Notes under the pieces: model-generated
Seen by the model: the letters and a program-made list of their open reading frames with translations, nothing else
Databases searched by the model: none
Told to the model about the DNA's origin: nothing
In this document: piece after piece, positions 12,147-63,957 of the stretch
How positions within the stretch are numbered: the first letter of the stretch is position 1
Layout: every line of letters starts with the position of its first letter
Made by a program: the position numbers and the translations under genes
Source: Caulobacter sp. RHG1
GTDB lineage: Bacteria > Pseudomonadota > Alphaproteobacteria > Caulobacterales > Caulobacteraceae
Reading direction: 5' to 3'
Assembly (NCBI RefSeq): GCF_013181195.1
Contig: NZ_SMZP01000004.1
Coordinates: forward strand, 372,001-436,000
DNA: 64,000 bases

Positions 12147-12194
12147 TGGAGCGGGCGGGGGGAATCGAACCCCCGACATTCAGCTTGGGAAGCT
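12147..12194. repeat. attL: displaced 3' end of tRNA-Gly
   Basis: Identical over 48 bp to 63883-63930, which forms the 3' half of the intact tRNA-Gly at the right end. It encodes the anticodon loop to CCA part only, so it is a remnant and not a tRNA gene. The identity breaks exactly at T12194/A12195. Confidence 0.95.
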
Positions 12195-12294: not shown

Positions 12295-13398
12295 TTATGT
12301 ATCGGCCCGATTGATGCGCGCAGCAAGTGCCATGACGATGGCGTCACGGTCGACGTAGGTGGCCAGCAATCGCGCAACGCGGCTATCCTCCCATCCGACG
12401 ATATCGGCGATCTCCGAGGCCGTCAGGCTCGCTCGGCGCAGGCGGGTCGCGAAGGAGCCGCGCGCATCGTGAAGGTGCTTGTCGACGCCGGCGGCCGACT
12501 TGGTGTCGATCACCTGATGTTCCAGGCCGTTGACGCTCCATGGCTGGCCGCGCGTGTTGGACAGCACGGTCAGGCAGGCCGGCGGAGGCGGGCGCTTCTT
12601 CTTGGCAGCGCGTTCGCATAGCTCGGCGTGGCGGGCCGCCTGCTGCACCCGTATGCGCTCCAGAAGCGCCTTGGTCTCTGGCAAGACCGGGATGGTCTGG
12701 GTCTTCTTACCCCGGCTCTTGGAGGTCGGCTTGACGATAGCCACGTCGCCGACCTGAGACCACAGAAGGGACGCCAAATCCTCGCGACGGAGGCCGGTGA
12801 GGCAGGCCAGCGGAACGATGAAGGACACCTCTGGAGACGAGGCCTTGTTCATGAAGGCGGCGACCTCGCCCGGCTCCCAGATCTGGTCCGCACGCGACGA
12901 GGTGTACAGTTGCGAGAGGCCAGCGGCGGAGTTTCGCTCCAGGATGCCAGCGTCGACGGCCTGCGCCAGGACAACAGACAGGACTTGGATCGCATAGTCC
13001 GCGGAGCGCGGCCGGTCCTTCCACTGGTTGCGCCAGTCGATGATGTCGGCGCGGACGCGACGGTCGTCGAGGAGCTTGTAGGTCAGGCCGCCGATGTCGT
13101 CAGGGCCGTCGTCAGCGGAGATCCGGTCTAGCCAGCGTGACCACTCCGCCTTGGTGCTCTTGGCCAGGCGCTCGAACTCAGGCGATCCCTTGTAACGACG
13201 GACTAGGCCGGCGAGGGTGTCGTTCGGCCGGTTGCGGATGCTCTCCAGCGCCCGATTGTACGACGCCATGAACTCGGGCGTGCCCGGCGCGCCGTCTAGC
13301 TTCGGCCCGCCCTTCCACGCATACCAGTAGACGCGCGTCGTGCCGCCCTTGAGGGTCTTCTTGACCCTATTCAGACCCTTTAGCCGCACGACGGGCAT
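12295..13398 (-). CDS. int: Tyrosine-recombinase integrase
   Basis: 367 aa. Catalytic elements are visible in order: Arg in LTGLRREDLASLLW, Lys region SKSRGKKTQTIPV, HxxR in HLHDARGSFATRL, GWED, and the Tyr nucleophile in LLATYVDRD. It would catalyse site-specific recombination between phage and the tRNA-Gly attB. It lies about 100 bp from attL. Start at the ATG with GGAGAG upstream (MPVVRLKGL); it overlaps the preceding gene by 32 bp. Confidence 0.93.
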   Translation of the reverse strand: MPVVRLKGLNRVKKTLKGGTTRVYWYAWKGGPKLDGAPGTPEFMASYNRALESIRNRPNDTLAGLVRRYKGSPEFERLAKSTKAEWSRWLDRISADDGPDDIGGLTYKLLDDRRVRADIIDWRNQWKDRPRSADYAIQVLSVVLAQAVDAGILERNSAAGLSQLYTSSRADQIWEPGEVAAFMNKASSPEVSFIVPLACLTGLRREDLASLLWSQVGDVAIVKPTSKSRGKKTQTIPVLPETKALLERIRVQQAARHAELCERAAKKKRPPPPACLTVLSNTRGQPWSVNGLEHQVIDTKSAAGVDKHLHDARGSFATRLRRASLTASEIADIVGWEDSRVARLLATYVDRDAIVMALAARINRADT

Positions 13399-13606
13399 TC
13401 TTCTGTTCTCTCCAGGCATGCAGGTCATCGATCGGGGTGGCAGGCTGCTTCCCGGCTGGGTCCAACGTCAAGGGGCCGGGCTTGATCTCGACCCCGCCGC
13501 CCGGCAGGCAGACGATGGAAGCGGCGCTGAGGCCGACATCCTTCAGGGCGCGCATCACGCGGGAAATGTCCGCTTGGTGGGTGGTTTTCCCCCTAGCCAT
13601 TCGCAT
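13367..13606 (-). CDS. Small protein upstream of integrase
   Basis: 79 aa, unrecognised. The N-terminal half (HQADISRVMRALKDVGLSAASI) could form a helical DNA-binding segment, so an excisionase-like role is possible by position only. Strong AAGGAGG site; the ATG six bases downstream (13600) is an alternative start. Overlaps both neighbours. Confidence 0.7.
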   Translation of the reverse strand: MRMARGKTTHQADISRVMRALKDVGLSAASIVCLPGGGVEIKPGPLTLDPAGKQPATPIDDLHAWREQKNARRAAKGSE

Positions 13607-25476: not shown

Positions 25477-26109
25477 TCAAATCTCCGCTATTACCATTGT
25501 GACGCGGCCGATAACCTCCCAGGTCTCGCCGTCGCGCGGGTAGATCGGCTCGTTCGTCGGGTTCCAGCTCTCAGGCTCCAATCGATACGGATCTTTTCCG
25601 CCGAAGCGCTTGAACGTCGTCTTGCCCCGGCTTGAAAAGATGTAGCGGCGCCCGCGCACCAGTTCCCGATCGGCCCGGTTGACGATCAAGAGGCTGTCGT
25701 CCGGCGCAACGCGGTTCATGGAGTCGCCGCGCGCCTTCGTGCCGAAGTAGTCGCCAGGCGGCAGACCGCTGATCTCGATAGTCTCGCTTTCGGGCGGAAG
25801 CTGCGAAACATTGTCGGCGAGCTGGCCTGCGGCGACCCAATCGATGATCGGCACAGGTCGAGCGCCAGACCTTTGCGGCTTCGCGGGTCTTGGCGGCTCA
25901 ATATCGGAGCCCTTCATGAAATAGGCGACCGGATATCCAAGTTGGCCCGCGATCTTCTGGAGCGTGTCCATTCGCGGATTGGCCGTCTTGGCTCCGAGGA
26001 TGTCTTTGACCAAGCTGTCGTTGGTTCCGACCTTCAGGGATAGTGACCGATAGCTTTCGCCGCGCTCCTTAATGGCGGCCTTCAGGCGGGTTTTATCAAG
26101 CTCTGACAT
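25477..26109 (-). CDS. CI-like repressor, S24/LexA type
   Basis: 210 aa. N-terminal HTH (YRSLSLKVGTNDSLVKDILGAK, residues ~20-41). C-terminal self-cleavage domain: Ala94-Gly95 scissile pair in WVAAGQ, nucleophile Ser130 in ARGDSMN, and Lys167 in KTTFKRF. This predicts RecA-stimulated autocleavage and SOS induction. The ATG lies 2 bp from operator GGGGGATAATGCCCCC, there is no Shine-Dalgarno, and CATTAT inside the operator would put the transcript start at the ATG, so the mRNA may be leaderless like lambda cI from PRM. Confidence 0.9.
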   Translation of the reverse strand: MSELDKTRLKAAIKERGESYRSLSLKVGTNDSLVKDILGAKTANPRMDTLQKIAGQLGYPVAYFMKGSDIEPPRPAKPQRSGARPVPIIDWVAAGQLADNVSQLPPESETIEISGLPPGDYFGTKARGDSMNRVAPDDSLLIVNRADRELVRGRRYIFSSRGKTTFKRFGGKDPYRLEPESWNPTNEPIYPRDGETWEVIGRVTMVIAEI

Positions 26110-26111
26110 GT

Positions 26112-26186
26112 GGGGGATAATGCCCCCGTGACGCTTGCTCACGCAGGGGGATGTGTCCCCCGTTGACGACGGGGGATTTTTCCCCC
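26112..26186. promoter_or_regulatory. Divergent cI/cro control region, three operators
   Basis: Three 16-bp palindromes: GGGGGATAATGCCCCC (26112-26127), GGGGGATGTGTCCCCC (26146-26161) and GGGGGATTTTTCCCCC (26171-26186). Rightward promoter: TTGACG at 26163-26168 with the third operator in the spacer and a weak -10 near 26186-26191, which would start transcription at or next to the ATG at 26198. The leftward promoter for the repressor overlaps the first operator. Confidence 0.8.
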
Positions 26187-26197
26187 ACTGTGTCGTC

Positions 26198-26419
26198 ATG
26201 AGCATCCCCGAATTCATCCGCATGTGCGACGCCTACTGCGCAAGAGCGCAGGTCTCGCGCACCTGGCTGTCCAAGCGACTGCTCAAGGACACCACCCGTC
26301 TGCAAGATTTGGCAAACGGATCTGTCGACATCGGCGTCAAGCGCCTTGCTCGCGCCGTCGATGATCTTCGCAAACTCGATGGACGCCCCAAGGCTCGCGC
26401 CACCCAAGAGGCCGCATAA
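26198..26419 (+). CDS. Cro-like DNA-binding protein
   Basis: 73 aa, first rightward gene opposite the repressor. A helix-turn-helix-like stretch AQVSRTWLSKRLLKDTTRLQDLANG lies at residues 16-40. Position and size suggest Cro, the early antagonist of CI; sequence similarity is weak. Only ~12 bp separate it from the third operator, so its mRNA may be leaderless. Confidence 0.65.
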   Translation: MSIPEFIRMCDAYCARAQVSRTWLSKRLLKDTTRLQDLANGSVDIGVKRLARAVDDLRKLDGRPKARATQEAA

Positions 26420-27404: not shown

Positions 27405-27866
27405 ATGACGAAGATCCGCGAACCGCTTTCCGTCGCCGACGCAATCACCGAGATCGCCAAGACCGTCGGCTGGGAAGAAACCGCCGCCGTCGTCGGCCTG
27501 ACCGTCCGTAGCATCGCCTACTGGTCGGACCCGGAAGACCCGCGCGAGCCAAAGCTTTCGCAGGCCCTGGCGCTGGACGCTGGGTATCGCGCCGCGACGA
27601 AGGGCGACTATGCGCCGATCCAGGCCGCCTACGGACATCAGCTCGACCTTCTTCAGGCGCCGGTCGGCAACCGTGACCAGCTTCGCCAGATCGTCGGCGA
27701 GTTGGTGAAGGAGACGGGCGAGGCCGTGTGCGCCGTGCTGCACGCCAGCGACAACCCAGATCCGAACGCAGAGCGCGACGCGGTCCGCGAGCTTGACGAG
27801 GCCGCCGAAGTCATCGGCCGCGCCCGCGCCGCCATCGTTCCGTTCCCGAAGGCGGTGTCCCAATGA
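27405..27866 (+). CDS. CII-like phage regulator
   Basis: 153 aa. N-terminal ADAITEIAKTVGWEETAAVVGLTVRSIAYWSDPED resembles the HTH of phage CII (CP76-type) regulators, which choose between lysis and lysogeny; the C-terminal half is helical. Position in the rightward early operon after the Cro-like gene agrees. ATGA overlap with the next gene. Confidence 0.65.
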   Translation: MTKIREPLSVADAITEIAKTVGWEETAAVVGLTVRSIAYWSDPEDPREPKLSQALALDAGYRAATKGDYAPIQAAYGHQLDLLQAPVGNRDQLRQIVGELVKETGEAVCAVLHASDNPDPNAERDAVRELDEAAEVIGRARAAIVPFPKAVSQ

Positions 27867-28352: not shown

Positions 28353-28685
28353 ATGAAGACCAAGACCATCAAGGGCCTGTTGGGCCTGACCGCTACTGTC
28401 GCCGTGATCGCTTTGGCTGGCTGCGGCGGCGTCTACAACACCGATACCTATCAAGCCGAGCGTGACGCGCTCTACAGCGACAAGCCCGCCCAGATCACCT
28501 GCTTCGGCTACGGCACGGTGATGTTCGATGGCTCGTCAACGGGCAAGGTGCTCTACGACGACGGCGGCCGGGTCAGCTTCGTCGACGCTGCGAACGGTCG
28601 CTACACCACGGTCGAAGGCGAGTGCCGCGTGGTCTACGCGCTGGCCACTGCGCCGTCGCGCGCCACCCAAACGGGGGCTCGCTGA
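28353..28685 (+). CDS. Small lipoprotein
   Basis: 110 aa. Signal peptide with lipobox LAGC (Cys at ~24), then a short beta-rich domain with two cysteines (TCFGYG, GECRVV). It lies in the early operon, so the envelope may be altered soon after infection; function unknown. Confidence 0.7.
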   Translation: MKTKTIKGLLGLTATVAVIALAGCGGVYNTDTYQAERDALYSDKPAQITCFGYGTVMFDGSSTGKVLYDDGGRVSFVDAANGRYTTVEGECRVVYALATAPSRATQTGAR

Positions 28686-28687
28686 TC

Positions 28688-29293
28688 ATGGCTGACGACG
28701 CCGTCCCGCATAGCGATGTCTTGGGCAGCAATGCCCAGAGCCAACTGAAGTCGATCGTCGAGCGGCTGGAGCGACTGGCTGTCGAGAAGGCCGAGATCGC
28801 CGAGCAGGAGAAGGAAGTCCTGCTGGAGGCGAAAGGTAATGGCTATTGCACCAAGACCATCAAGAAGGTCATCGCCCGCCGGAAGATCGAACGCGCCAAG
28901 CTCCAAGAGCAAGAGGCGATGATCGACCTTTACGAGTCCGCCCTTGACGGATTGCCCCTGTTCGAGGCTGCCGAGCCGAAGGACGGAAACGGCGGCATCG
29001 CGACCGTCACCCTGACGATGGGCGATGGCAGCGCGGTCGCGGCGACGCCCGACCAGATGGCGGTTGCCATGGCCACGCTCGACGGGAAGTCGACGGGGCA
29101 GGCCCTCTACGAACAGGCTGTCGCCATCGTGAAACGCGATCGCAAGGCGTCGATCTCCTACCTCCAGCGCAAGCTGCAGCTCAACTTCGATACGGCTTCC
29201 AACCTCATGAGCTTGATGGAGGAGACCGGCGTGGTTGGTCCGCCCGATCGAGCCGGCAAGCGCGAGATCCTGGTCCAGGCGGAGGCCGCGTAG
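28688..29293 (+). CDS. GapR/DUF2312 - FtsK-gamma fusion protein
   Basis: 201 aa, two domains. Residues ~14-90 (SNAQSQLKSIVERLERL, AEIAEQEKEVLLEAKGNGY, CTKTIKKVIARRK) match DUF2312/GapR, the Caulobacter nucleoid protein that binds overtwisted DNA. Residues ~140-198 (LYEQAVAIVKRDRKASISY, LQRKLQLNFDTASNLMSLME, TGVVGPPD, REILV) match the FtsK gamma winged helix, which in FtsK reads KOPS and activates XerCD. A linker of ~50 residues joins them. The family of each half is clear; the fusion and its role are the novelty. It may load on replicating or transcribed phage DNA. Confidence 0.85.
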   Translation: MADDAVPHSDVLGSNAQSQLKSIVERLERLAVEKAEIAEQEKEVLLEAKGNGYCTKTIKKVIARRKIERAKLQEQEAMIDLYESALDGLPLFEAAEPKDGNGGIATVTLTMGDGSAVAATPDQMAVAMATLDGKSTGQALYEQAVAIVKRDRKASISYLQRKLQLNFDTASNLMSLMEETGVVGPPDRAGKREILVQAEAA

Positions 29294-31746: not shown

Positions 31747-32574
31747 ATGGCTAAAGCTCCAGAACAGCCCGCACTCTTCGACCTATCGCCACAGCCGCGA
31801 CGATTGAACGATCACGGCCAGCGCGTGGTGGCCTGGTTCTCGTGCGGTGCCACGTCGGCCATCGCGACTAAACTCGCCATCGCTCGTTGGGGAGATCGGG
31901 TTGAGGTCGTCCGCATCCGCCTGGGGCGTGAGCACGCGGACAATGATCGCTTTGCAGCAGATTGCTCGGCTTGGTTCGGTAAGCCGATCCTCGACATTCG
32001 CTCGCACCGCTACGACGACCATTTCGAAGTCGCTGTTGGGGAGCGCTACATCAACGGGCCGGACGGCGCGAAATGCAGCGCCATCCTAAAGCGCGCCGTT
32101 CGCGAGGCCTTCCAATCGTTCGACGACATCCAGGTATTCGGCTTCGACGCTGACGAAGAGGTCTCGCAGAACCGGGCGCGAGACTTCCGCCTCCATCATC
32201 CCGAAATCATGCTGGTCACGCCCCTTTTAGATGAAGGGCTCGGGAAGGCTGACTGCCTGGCGATGGTGGAGCGAGCCGGCATTGAGATCCCGGCGATGTA
32301 CCGGCTCGGCTTCGGCAACAACAACTGCGTGGGCTGCTGGAAAGGCGGGATGGGATACTGGAACAAGATCCGCCGGGACTTCCCGGAGGTCTTCGCCGAG
32401 GCCGCCCTGGTCGAGCGCTCGATCGGTCGTTCAGCTATCAGAACAAAGGCCGACGGCCAGGTTTTCCTCGACACCCTCGATCCTGCACGCGGCCGTTTTG
32501 AAGACGAGCCGAAAATTTCCTGCGGTCCCACCTGCTTCACCGCAGAGTCCAAGATCACGGGCGAGGCCGCTTGA
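31747..32574 (+). CDS. PP-loop (PAPS reductase-like) protein
   Basis: 275 aa. A PP-loop-like P-site WFSCGATSAIATKLA (residues ~29-43) replaces the usual SGGxDS, and NNNCVGCWKGG near residue 195 supplies a CxxC. This is the adenine-nucleotide alpha-hydrolase/PAPS-reductase fold often found beside phage methyltransferases. It activates a substrate by adenylation; which one is unknown. It starts at the base after the methyltransferase stop, so a DNA- or RNA-modification role is a fair guess. Confidence 0.75.
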   Translation: MAKAPEQPALFDLSPQPRRLNDHGQRVVAWFSCGATSAIATKLAIARWGDRVEVVRIRLGREHADNDRFAADCSAWFGKPILDIRSHRYDDHFEVAVGERYINGPDGAKCSAILKRAVREAFQSFDDIQVFGFDADEEVSQNRARDFRLHHPEIMLVTPLLDEGLGKADCLAMVERAGIEIPAMYRLGFGNNNCVGCWKGGMGYWNKIRRDFPEVFAEAALVERSIGRSAIRTKADGQVFLDTLDPARGRFEDEPKISCGPTCFTAESKITGEAA

Positions 32575-63882: not shown

Positions 63883-63930
63883 TGGAGCGGGCGGGGGGAA
63901 TCGAACCCCCGACATTCAGCTTGGGAAGCT
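63883..63930. repeat. attR: 48-bp core within tRNA-Gly
   Basis: Identical to attL (12147-12194). This copy came with the phage and restores the 3' half of the tRNA. Confidence 0.95.
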
Positions 63931-63957
63931 GACGTTCTACCTCTGAACTACGCCCGC
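63883..63957 (-). tRNA. tRNA-Gly (anticodon CCC)
   Basis: 75 nt with an encoded CCA end. Acceptor GCGGGCG / CGCCCGC, D-arm GTTCAGAGGTAGAAC, anticodon stem TCAGC/GCTGA around loop TTCCCAA (anticodon CCC), T-arm GGGGG-TTCGATT-CCCCC. The 3' part is the prophage attachment core, so the gene remains functional after integration. Confidence 0.97.

Follow-up and report, generated by a model that had tools for sequence, protein, structure and literature searches.

The stretch of DNA analysed here, a window of 64,000 nucleotides from Caulobacter sp. RHG1, contains a prophage of 51.8 kb that is delimited by 48-bp direct repeats and extends from position 12147 to 63930 (Table 1). Besides an integrase and a CI-like repressor, the prophage encodes a RecE-like exonuclease, an Erf-like annealing protein, DNA methyltransferases and a transcription antiterminator, as well as a large terminase (36317), a portal, a head protease, a tail protein and an endolysin. 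Weak matches were obtained for the genes at 27405 (CII-like family, E 0.056) and 30270 (regulator family, E 0.02). The gene under study, a fusion of a GapR domain with an FtsK-gamma winged helix, lies on the early side between the CI-like repressor and a methyltransferase. The initial annotation had called it phage-encoded, which is borne out by the attachment repeats, the tRNA-Gly and the repressor, integrase, terminase, portal and endolysin genes. The host assembly (5.63 Mb, 18 contigs) has separate genes for GapR (89 aa, contig C14) and FtsK (contig C12); as both genes are located on other contigs, the fusion is an additional gene. Elsewhere in the prophage, positions 31747-32574 code for a phosphoadenosine phosphosulfate reductase-like protein (PHROG 424, E 2.6e-47) adjoining a DNA methyltransferase gene.

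Table 1 Features of the prophage and of the GapR-FtsK-gamma fusion gene, in window coordinates.
Feature	Position	Strand	Remark or evidence
Attachment repeat, left, 48 bp	12147..12194	+	
Integrase	12295..13428	-	
CI-like repressor, start of early region	25477..26223	-	
Upstream operon gene, 110 aa, lipoprotein-like beginning	28353..28685	+	
GapR-FtsK-gamma fusion gene, 201 aa	28688..29293	+	ORF, Pfam, AlphaFold2, Foldseek
GapR DNA-binding/oligomerisation domain, residues 16-87	28733..28948	+	Pfam, residue comparison
Linker, residues 88-137, with GLPLFE motif	28949..29098	+	AlphaFold2
FtsK-gamma winged helix, residues 139-196	29102..29275	+	Pfam, AlphaFold2, Foldseek
Downstream operon gene, 95 aa	29294..29581	+	
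Attachment repeat, right, 48 bp	63883..63930	+	in 3' part of tRNA-Gly
tRNA-Gly	63883-63957	-	

The ATG of the fusion stands two bases past the upstream stop codon. Its TAG (29291-29293) is directly followed by the ATG of the next gene. Pfam assigned GapR_DNA-bd to residues 16-87 (E 1.8e-23; 82.3 bits versus a cut-off of 22.6) and FtsK_gamma to residues 139-196 (E 1.7e-19; 69.7 bits versus 30.6). Nothing else within the 201 aa exceeded a Pfam cut-off, including the FtsK motor (PF01580) and Terminase_2, the large terminase being a separate gene. With 106.5 of 140 bits the fusion stayed below the cut-off of the NCBIfam GapR equivalog. By sequence, the amino-terminal half matched structures of Caulobacter GapR (6jyk, E 1.1e-29); the match of the carboxy-terminal half was to the FtsK-gamma of P. 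aeruginosa (2ve8/2ve9, E 1.1e-9). The reading frame is open and its codon-usage score positive; together, the Pfam assignments, the matches to sequences of known structure and the codon usage rule out a chance similarity or a frame artefact.

The AlphaFold2 model of the fusion (mean pLDDT 74.6, pTM 0.38) comprises two long helices, as expected for a GapR-like domain, a linker module of a hairpin plus a helix, and a winged helix. Within the linker, a low-confidence segment (residues 89-102, pLDDT <50) precedes a predicted β-hairpin (107-119) and helix (121-131). The winged helix reaches block confidences of 82-88 over residues 141-190 and contains the recognition helix at about residues 167-180. 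Foldseek returned FtsK-gamma, alone and KOPS-bound (2ve8, 2ve9), as the top PDB matches, with an rmsd of 0.6-0.8 Å and TMt of 0.80-0.89 for the first ten. No GapR chain was among the 50 best PDB matches listed, so that the assignment of the GapR half rests on sequence. The identities originally proposed for the two halves and their coordinates thus proved correct, with Pfam scores well over the cut-offs, and the carboxy-terminal half, when checked against FtsK gamma, matched it by Pfam, by sequence and by Foldseek.

GapR has been described as a tetramer encircling DNA with a preference for overtwisted DNA (passages of PMC8360656 and PMC6853979), its channel has been argued to accept B-DNA (passages of PMC6853979), and it senses positive supercoils without base-specific contacts (passages of PMC7498317). 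We compared the GapR half of the fusion with the host protein, taking residue roles from parts of PMC7498317 and PMC7373187; the former assigns E31, D68 and E88 to dimer or closed-tetramer contacts. The two proteins are identical at 58 of 86 positions and at eight of the nine DNA positions checked (34, 42, 49, 56, 59, 60, 63, 65, 66). The fusion keeps R26, E28, K34, K42, E47, K49, K56, K59, K60, R65, K66 and R69 together with the tetramer-core residue Y82, and thereby seven of the eight DNA-facing basic residues (K34, K42, K49, K56, K59, K60, R63, K66). Position 63 is an alanine adjoining R64, and the structural R65 is also retained. The remaining changes are E31 to A, D68 to E and, just past the domain, E88 to G.

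FtsK-gamma is a compact sequence reader that usually sits on a motor ring. According to passages of PMC5052618, three FtsK gammas are bound at each KOPS with the motor ring loaded beside them, and the XerD contacts of gamma (Q1288, R1289, R1292, I1293, G1294 and N1296) are a subset of its DNA-contacting residues, Q1288 and R1289 making the contacts to E184 in the E. coli XerD complex. The triple mutant R1300A/E1303A/E1306A is KOPS-blind (passages of PMC2680272). The gamma of the fusion keeps Q1288, R1289 and E1306, replaces N1296 by D, R1297 by T and E1303 by S, and has N at 1300 and L at 1304. The KOPS-reading positions N1296, R/S1300, E1303 and E1306 are therefore occupied by D, N, S and E, a combination that departs from the KOPS-reading set, and the six XerD contacts by Q, R, Q, L, N and D. 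Position 1300 is S in the host's own FtsK, and 1292 is Q.

The combination of both domains recurs in other proteins. We found at least 185 GapR/gamma fusions among the matches listed, 183 from three protein searches (the best 120 each of 409, 277 and 2147 matches) and two from phage translations; the resulting 342 proteins also hold 98 with gamma only and 59 with GapR only. At least 80 of the listed fusions, including the window protein, have the order GapR then gamma, at least 104 (phage 45A6 included) the order gamma then GapR, and one, from RcOceanus, the order gamma-gamma-GapR; pairing in both orders is expected if the two activities work together. These numbers rule out a unique protein. 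The initial annotation had known of no described protein of this architecture, and broad queries of the open-licence literature, assessed by their best matches, likewise yielded no description; the architecture itself is not rare, however, and occurs also in isolated phages.

Closer to the host, a full-length fusion was found, among the matches listed, only in the window genome and in G320 for 390 genomes of the family, in a search blind to reverse-order fusions, and only in the window genome and in G665 for 385 genomes across the class. The gamma of G665 is very divergent: its locus (L127), from another alphaproteobacterial family, joins GapR to a downstream gamma-like domain that has strongly diverged, and is perhaps a separate fusion event. 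Of 403 viral relatives, the best 79 loci were examined; four carry a fusion and the other 75 GapR alone. No match to the window protein at ≥80% coverage was obtained in 50,697 phage and 72,556 plasmid records. Ruegeria phage 45A6 encodes a protein of 351 aa with gamma at residues 141-198 and GapR at 280-350, named 'cell division protein FtsK'. The RcOceanus protein is matched at ≥80% coverage by eleven Rhodobacter capsulatus phage records; Pfam confirmed two of these as gamma-gamma-GapR, and the annotation is 'hypothetical protein'. RcOceanus gp48 lies near genes for an AAA-ATPase, a nuclease and a methylase. The paper on the RcC phages (PMC8601537) contains in its main text none of the terms GapR, DUF2312 and FtsK.

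Several database names in this group deserve comment. The motorless gamma-GapR proteins P0155 and ANH49054.1 go under 'DNA translocase FtsK' or 'cell division protein FtsK', which is misleading. Eleven Caulobacter phage records have matches to the GapR domain, the copy of phage DMCA having 89 aa and a Pfam GapR domain. A GapR of an Erythrobacter phage has been presented as the first from a phage (passages of PMC12185513), though several phage records already carry DUF2312 names.

Among the 184 single-gamma fusions listed, Q1288 is present in 183, R1289 in all, N1296 in 181 and E1303 in 171. N1296 or E1303 is replaced in 14 of these 184, and both residues in only two, the window protein and P0153; outside this set, L049 and the first gamma of RcOceanus gp48 show the same double replacement. 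These counts use the set of 184, while the residue alignment has 31 fusion rows with near-duplicates among them (L047/P0007, L048/P0010). The 98 gamma-only sequences listed have invariant G1294, Y1295, N1296, E1303 and E1306, nearly always R or K at 1297 and S or T at 1300, whereas in the fusions the first five positions vary somewhat and 1297 and 1300 widely; as the searches started with fusions, the gamma-only set is biased to similar sequences, and it includes one protein with the look of a truncated fusion (P0017). The retention of N1296 and E1303 suggests that most fusions are able to read a KOPS-like site, and judging by these residues they probably dock on host-type KOPS. The fusion of the window is an outlier, its recognition helix being changed within an intact predicted fold, and its residues indicate that it most likely reads a site different from KOPS. 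With D, N and S at 1296, 1300 and 1303, set against N1296 and E1303 in all 98 gamma-only sequences listed, the earlier proposal that gamma reads KOPS does not hold up for this copy.

Comparison of individual proteins suggests that gamma has been gained, lost and exchanged. Over residues 1-92, P0005 and the window protein are 100% identical, whereas their identity is 29% in the linker and 63% for gamma; P0006 and P0014 are 88% identical to the window protein in the GapR domain, 25% in the linker and 65% in gamma. P0123 (241 aa) is near-identical to P0122 from phage 45A6 on both sides of a block of ~110 residues that holds gamma and that it lacks. Among the 20 loci chosen for comparison of neighbours, Caulobacter phage DMCA and the IMG/VR locus L050 carry a stand-alone GapR in the place corresponding to the fusion, and no gamma-bearing ORF was found in the fetched DMCA or L050 locus. 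L050 has relatives of both flanking genes, that of the upstream gene (71% over 73 aa) upstream of the stand-alone GapR and that of the downstream gene (55%) directly downstream of it, as is the DMCA relative of the latter (54%). Gamma thus appears to be an optional, exchangeable cassette attached to a clamp that stays the same; the cases of exchange and deletion are comparisons at the protein level. Such exchange alone is not proof of sequence specificity, as gamma could bind a protein instead. Directly after the GapR domain the linker starts with GLPLFE (28949-28966), and among the matches listed LPLF occurs in 29 of 80 GapR-then-gamma proteins versus three of 59 with GapR only, and in none of 28 loci of the genus. 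We take GLPLFE to resemble a sliding-clamp-binding peptide without its leading Q, a residue that is usual in such peptides.

To relate the fusion to KOPS, we counted GGGNAGGG in the host genome, where it occurs 492+832 times versus 344+433 for the reversed pattern and, among the 100 places listed, in long one-stranded runs; both the excess and the runs are expected if the host uses GGGNAGGG. Within the prophage the strand ratio is 12:1 (6:4 for the reversed-pattern control), and the total of 16 in the 64-kb window compares with 14.35 expected, hence no excess. Forty records were counted, four of them named phages and the other 36 taken from the 79 viral loci. Among these, the fusion phages have 44 occurrences in 200,039 bp (4 records; reversed-pattern control 34) and the plain-GapR phages 318 in 1,488,328 bp (33 records; control 269). 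The three phages with gamma before GapR were left out of this two-group sum and have 1 in 53,160 bp (45A6), 11 in 37,609 bp (RcOceanus) and 11 in 42,073 bp (RcFrancesLouise). The KOPS density is 0.220 per kb in phages with the fusion and 0.214 per kb in those without gamma, hence no higher in the former. The counting proposed along with the KOPS reading thus lent it no support, and with the window close to expectation we dropped KOPS enrichment as evidence of a target site. Prophage 8-mers with at least 12 occurrences did not stand out either (best z 2.9); neither count yielded a target site for the fusion. The best host match to XerD, which lies below the family cut-off, has A, T and A at E184, Y187 and W188 of the E. 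coli protein, three of the listed gamma contacts, which also include E119, Q123, I127 and H257 (passages of PMC5052618); the comparison covered these three. The window KOPS counts and these XerD residues support neither a KOPS nor a XerD reading for the window fusion, and the idea that it couples phage DNA topology to dimer resolution loses ground accordingly; we regard the KOPS and dimer-resolution reading of this protein as weak.

The best idea remaining from the initial annotation is that of a GapR-type clamp directed to specific sites. We consider it about an even call that the fusion is an early protein of the phage and acts as a ring clamp of the GapR type to which an exchangeable gamma arm gives a sequence aim. 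As to its tetramer, site-specific loading, address and purpose, this is a model that we infer: by homology, the GapR part would form a tetramer around stretched or overtwisted DNA, each subunit would carry a flexibly tethered FtsK-gamma, and the tetramer would thus display four gammas, which as sequence-reading arms may bias where the clamp loads or stays. By analogy, gamma on the FtsK hexamer sets the loading of the ring at KOPS, and the fusion would be a motorless counterpart; its role might be the handling of positive supercoils of the replicating phage. The GapR tetramer, the KOPS loading by gammas and the flexible linkers together favour such an addressed clamp. It is supported by two complete domains, the fold of gamma being intact in the model and the DNA contacts, as read from the alignment, mostly kept. 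Against it, the motif counts above yielded no target site, and the residues for dimer and closed-tetramer contacts E31, D68 and E88 are changed to A, E and G.

Three other readings were weighed against the addressed clamp. The fusion could be a transcription or nucleoid factor of the phage, GapR binding phage DNA broadly, which has been proposed for the GapR homologue DsbA of phage T4, and gamma serving as an operator-binding helix-turn-helix for an early or late operon. Its place among a CI-like repressor, a transcription antiterminator and the weak CII-like and regulator matches would suit this role, as would the changed recognition helix, expected for a new operator, and the example of DsbA, which is reported to be homologous to the GapR family and might bring RNA polymerase to the late promoters of T4 (passages of PMC7824862); since N1296 and E1303 are kept by nearly all listed fusions, which suggests a shared KOPS-like target for most of them, we consider this unlikely. 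Alternatively, gamma could be a protein-docking arm, with the XerD of the host as its partner or with FtsK as its competitor for XerD or KOPS. Q1288 and R1289, near-invariant among the listed fusions and present in the window copy, agree with docking, and XerCD is used by some phages (abstract of PMC4246890), yet both residues are equally fixed in the gamma-only set and do not discriminate. The direct XerD contact N1296 is D and 1292 is Q (as in host FtsK), the contact residues of the host XerD match differ as given above, and the prophage is equipped with an integrase and a tRNA attachment site of its own, all of which makes docking quite improbable to us; that the phage would in this way alter chromosome dimer resolution or division, in lysogeny or during infection, we hold to be improbable to the same degree.

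The gamma of the window copy might also be a relic without a target, in which case the protein would act like an ordinary GapR of a phage. Replacements affect N1296 and two of the three residues mutated in the KOPS-blind FtsK, the double replacement of N1296 and E1303 is confined to two of the 184 fusions listed, and sister phages manage on GapR alone. An open frame with a positive codon-usage score, a confidently predicted winged helix that matches FtsK-gamma within 0.6-0.8 Å, and the retention of Q1288, R1289 and E1306 nevertheless render decay of this domain very improbable.

Taking the addressed clamp further, the fusions might together represent a 'motorless FtsK', that is, GapR clamps of alphaproteobacterial phages that are mapped to KOPS or to a private site and whose readers are traded while the clamp remains constant, a generalization that is possible but rather doubtful at present. 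If it is true, most members would borrow the KOPS map of the host to clamp the host or the phage chromosome, and some, like the window copy, would have a reader retuned to a site of their own. The natural fusions provide a set for asking whether a topology-sensing clamp can acquire a sequence address, and they bear on the evolution of FtsK-gamma specificity outside FtsK and on the use of host KOPS polarity by phages. Since GapR already serves as a mapping tool in GapR-seq (passages of PMC8360656), a version with an address could also find use.

Among known systems, the closest to the amino-terminal half is Caulobacter GapR (DUF2312/UPF0335; 6jyk, 6ozx, 6cg8), whose DNA-facing lysines and Y82 recur in the fusion; a GapR locus of C. 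hibisci is 69% identical over residues 1-86. In contrast to GapR, the fusion adds a carboxy-terminal linker and gamma, is changed at E31, R63, D68 and E88, and is a phage gene beside a separate host gapR. With the gamma of FtsK (2ve8/2ve9 from P. aeruginosa, 2j5p from E. coli) it shares the complete winged helix as well as Q1288, R1289 and E1306, but it lacks the motor and differs at 1296, 1297, 1300, 1303 and 1304. The same two domains are joined in a tailed-phage gene in 45A6 and in the RcC phages (RcOceanus gp48), where their order is reversed and, in the RcC proteins, gamma is doubled; N1296, R1300, E1303 and E1306 are retained by the gamma of 45A6 and by the second of the two in RcOceanus, but not by the first in RcOceanus. 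Gamma is also appended to another phage DNA-binding protein in Pseudomonas phage vB_Pae_CF63a, where its partner is RdgC and the adjoining genes are annotated as single-stranded DNA-binding and LexA-like. This RdgC-gamma protein (L013:2098-3318) matched Pfam RdgC with E 7.5e-107 and, at its carboxy terminus, gamma with E 2.4e-23; a like-named match is present in phage BR228a, and the JBD90 record matches without annotation. In Bacillus phages Sam46 and Sam112, FtsK-gamma has likewise been added to a protein that handles phage DNA, the small terminase; its partner there is a terminase domain rather than GapR, and for the Sam46 protein recognition of a site by gamma has been suggested (passages of PMC8190038).
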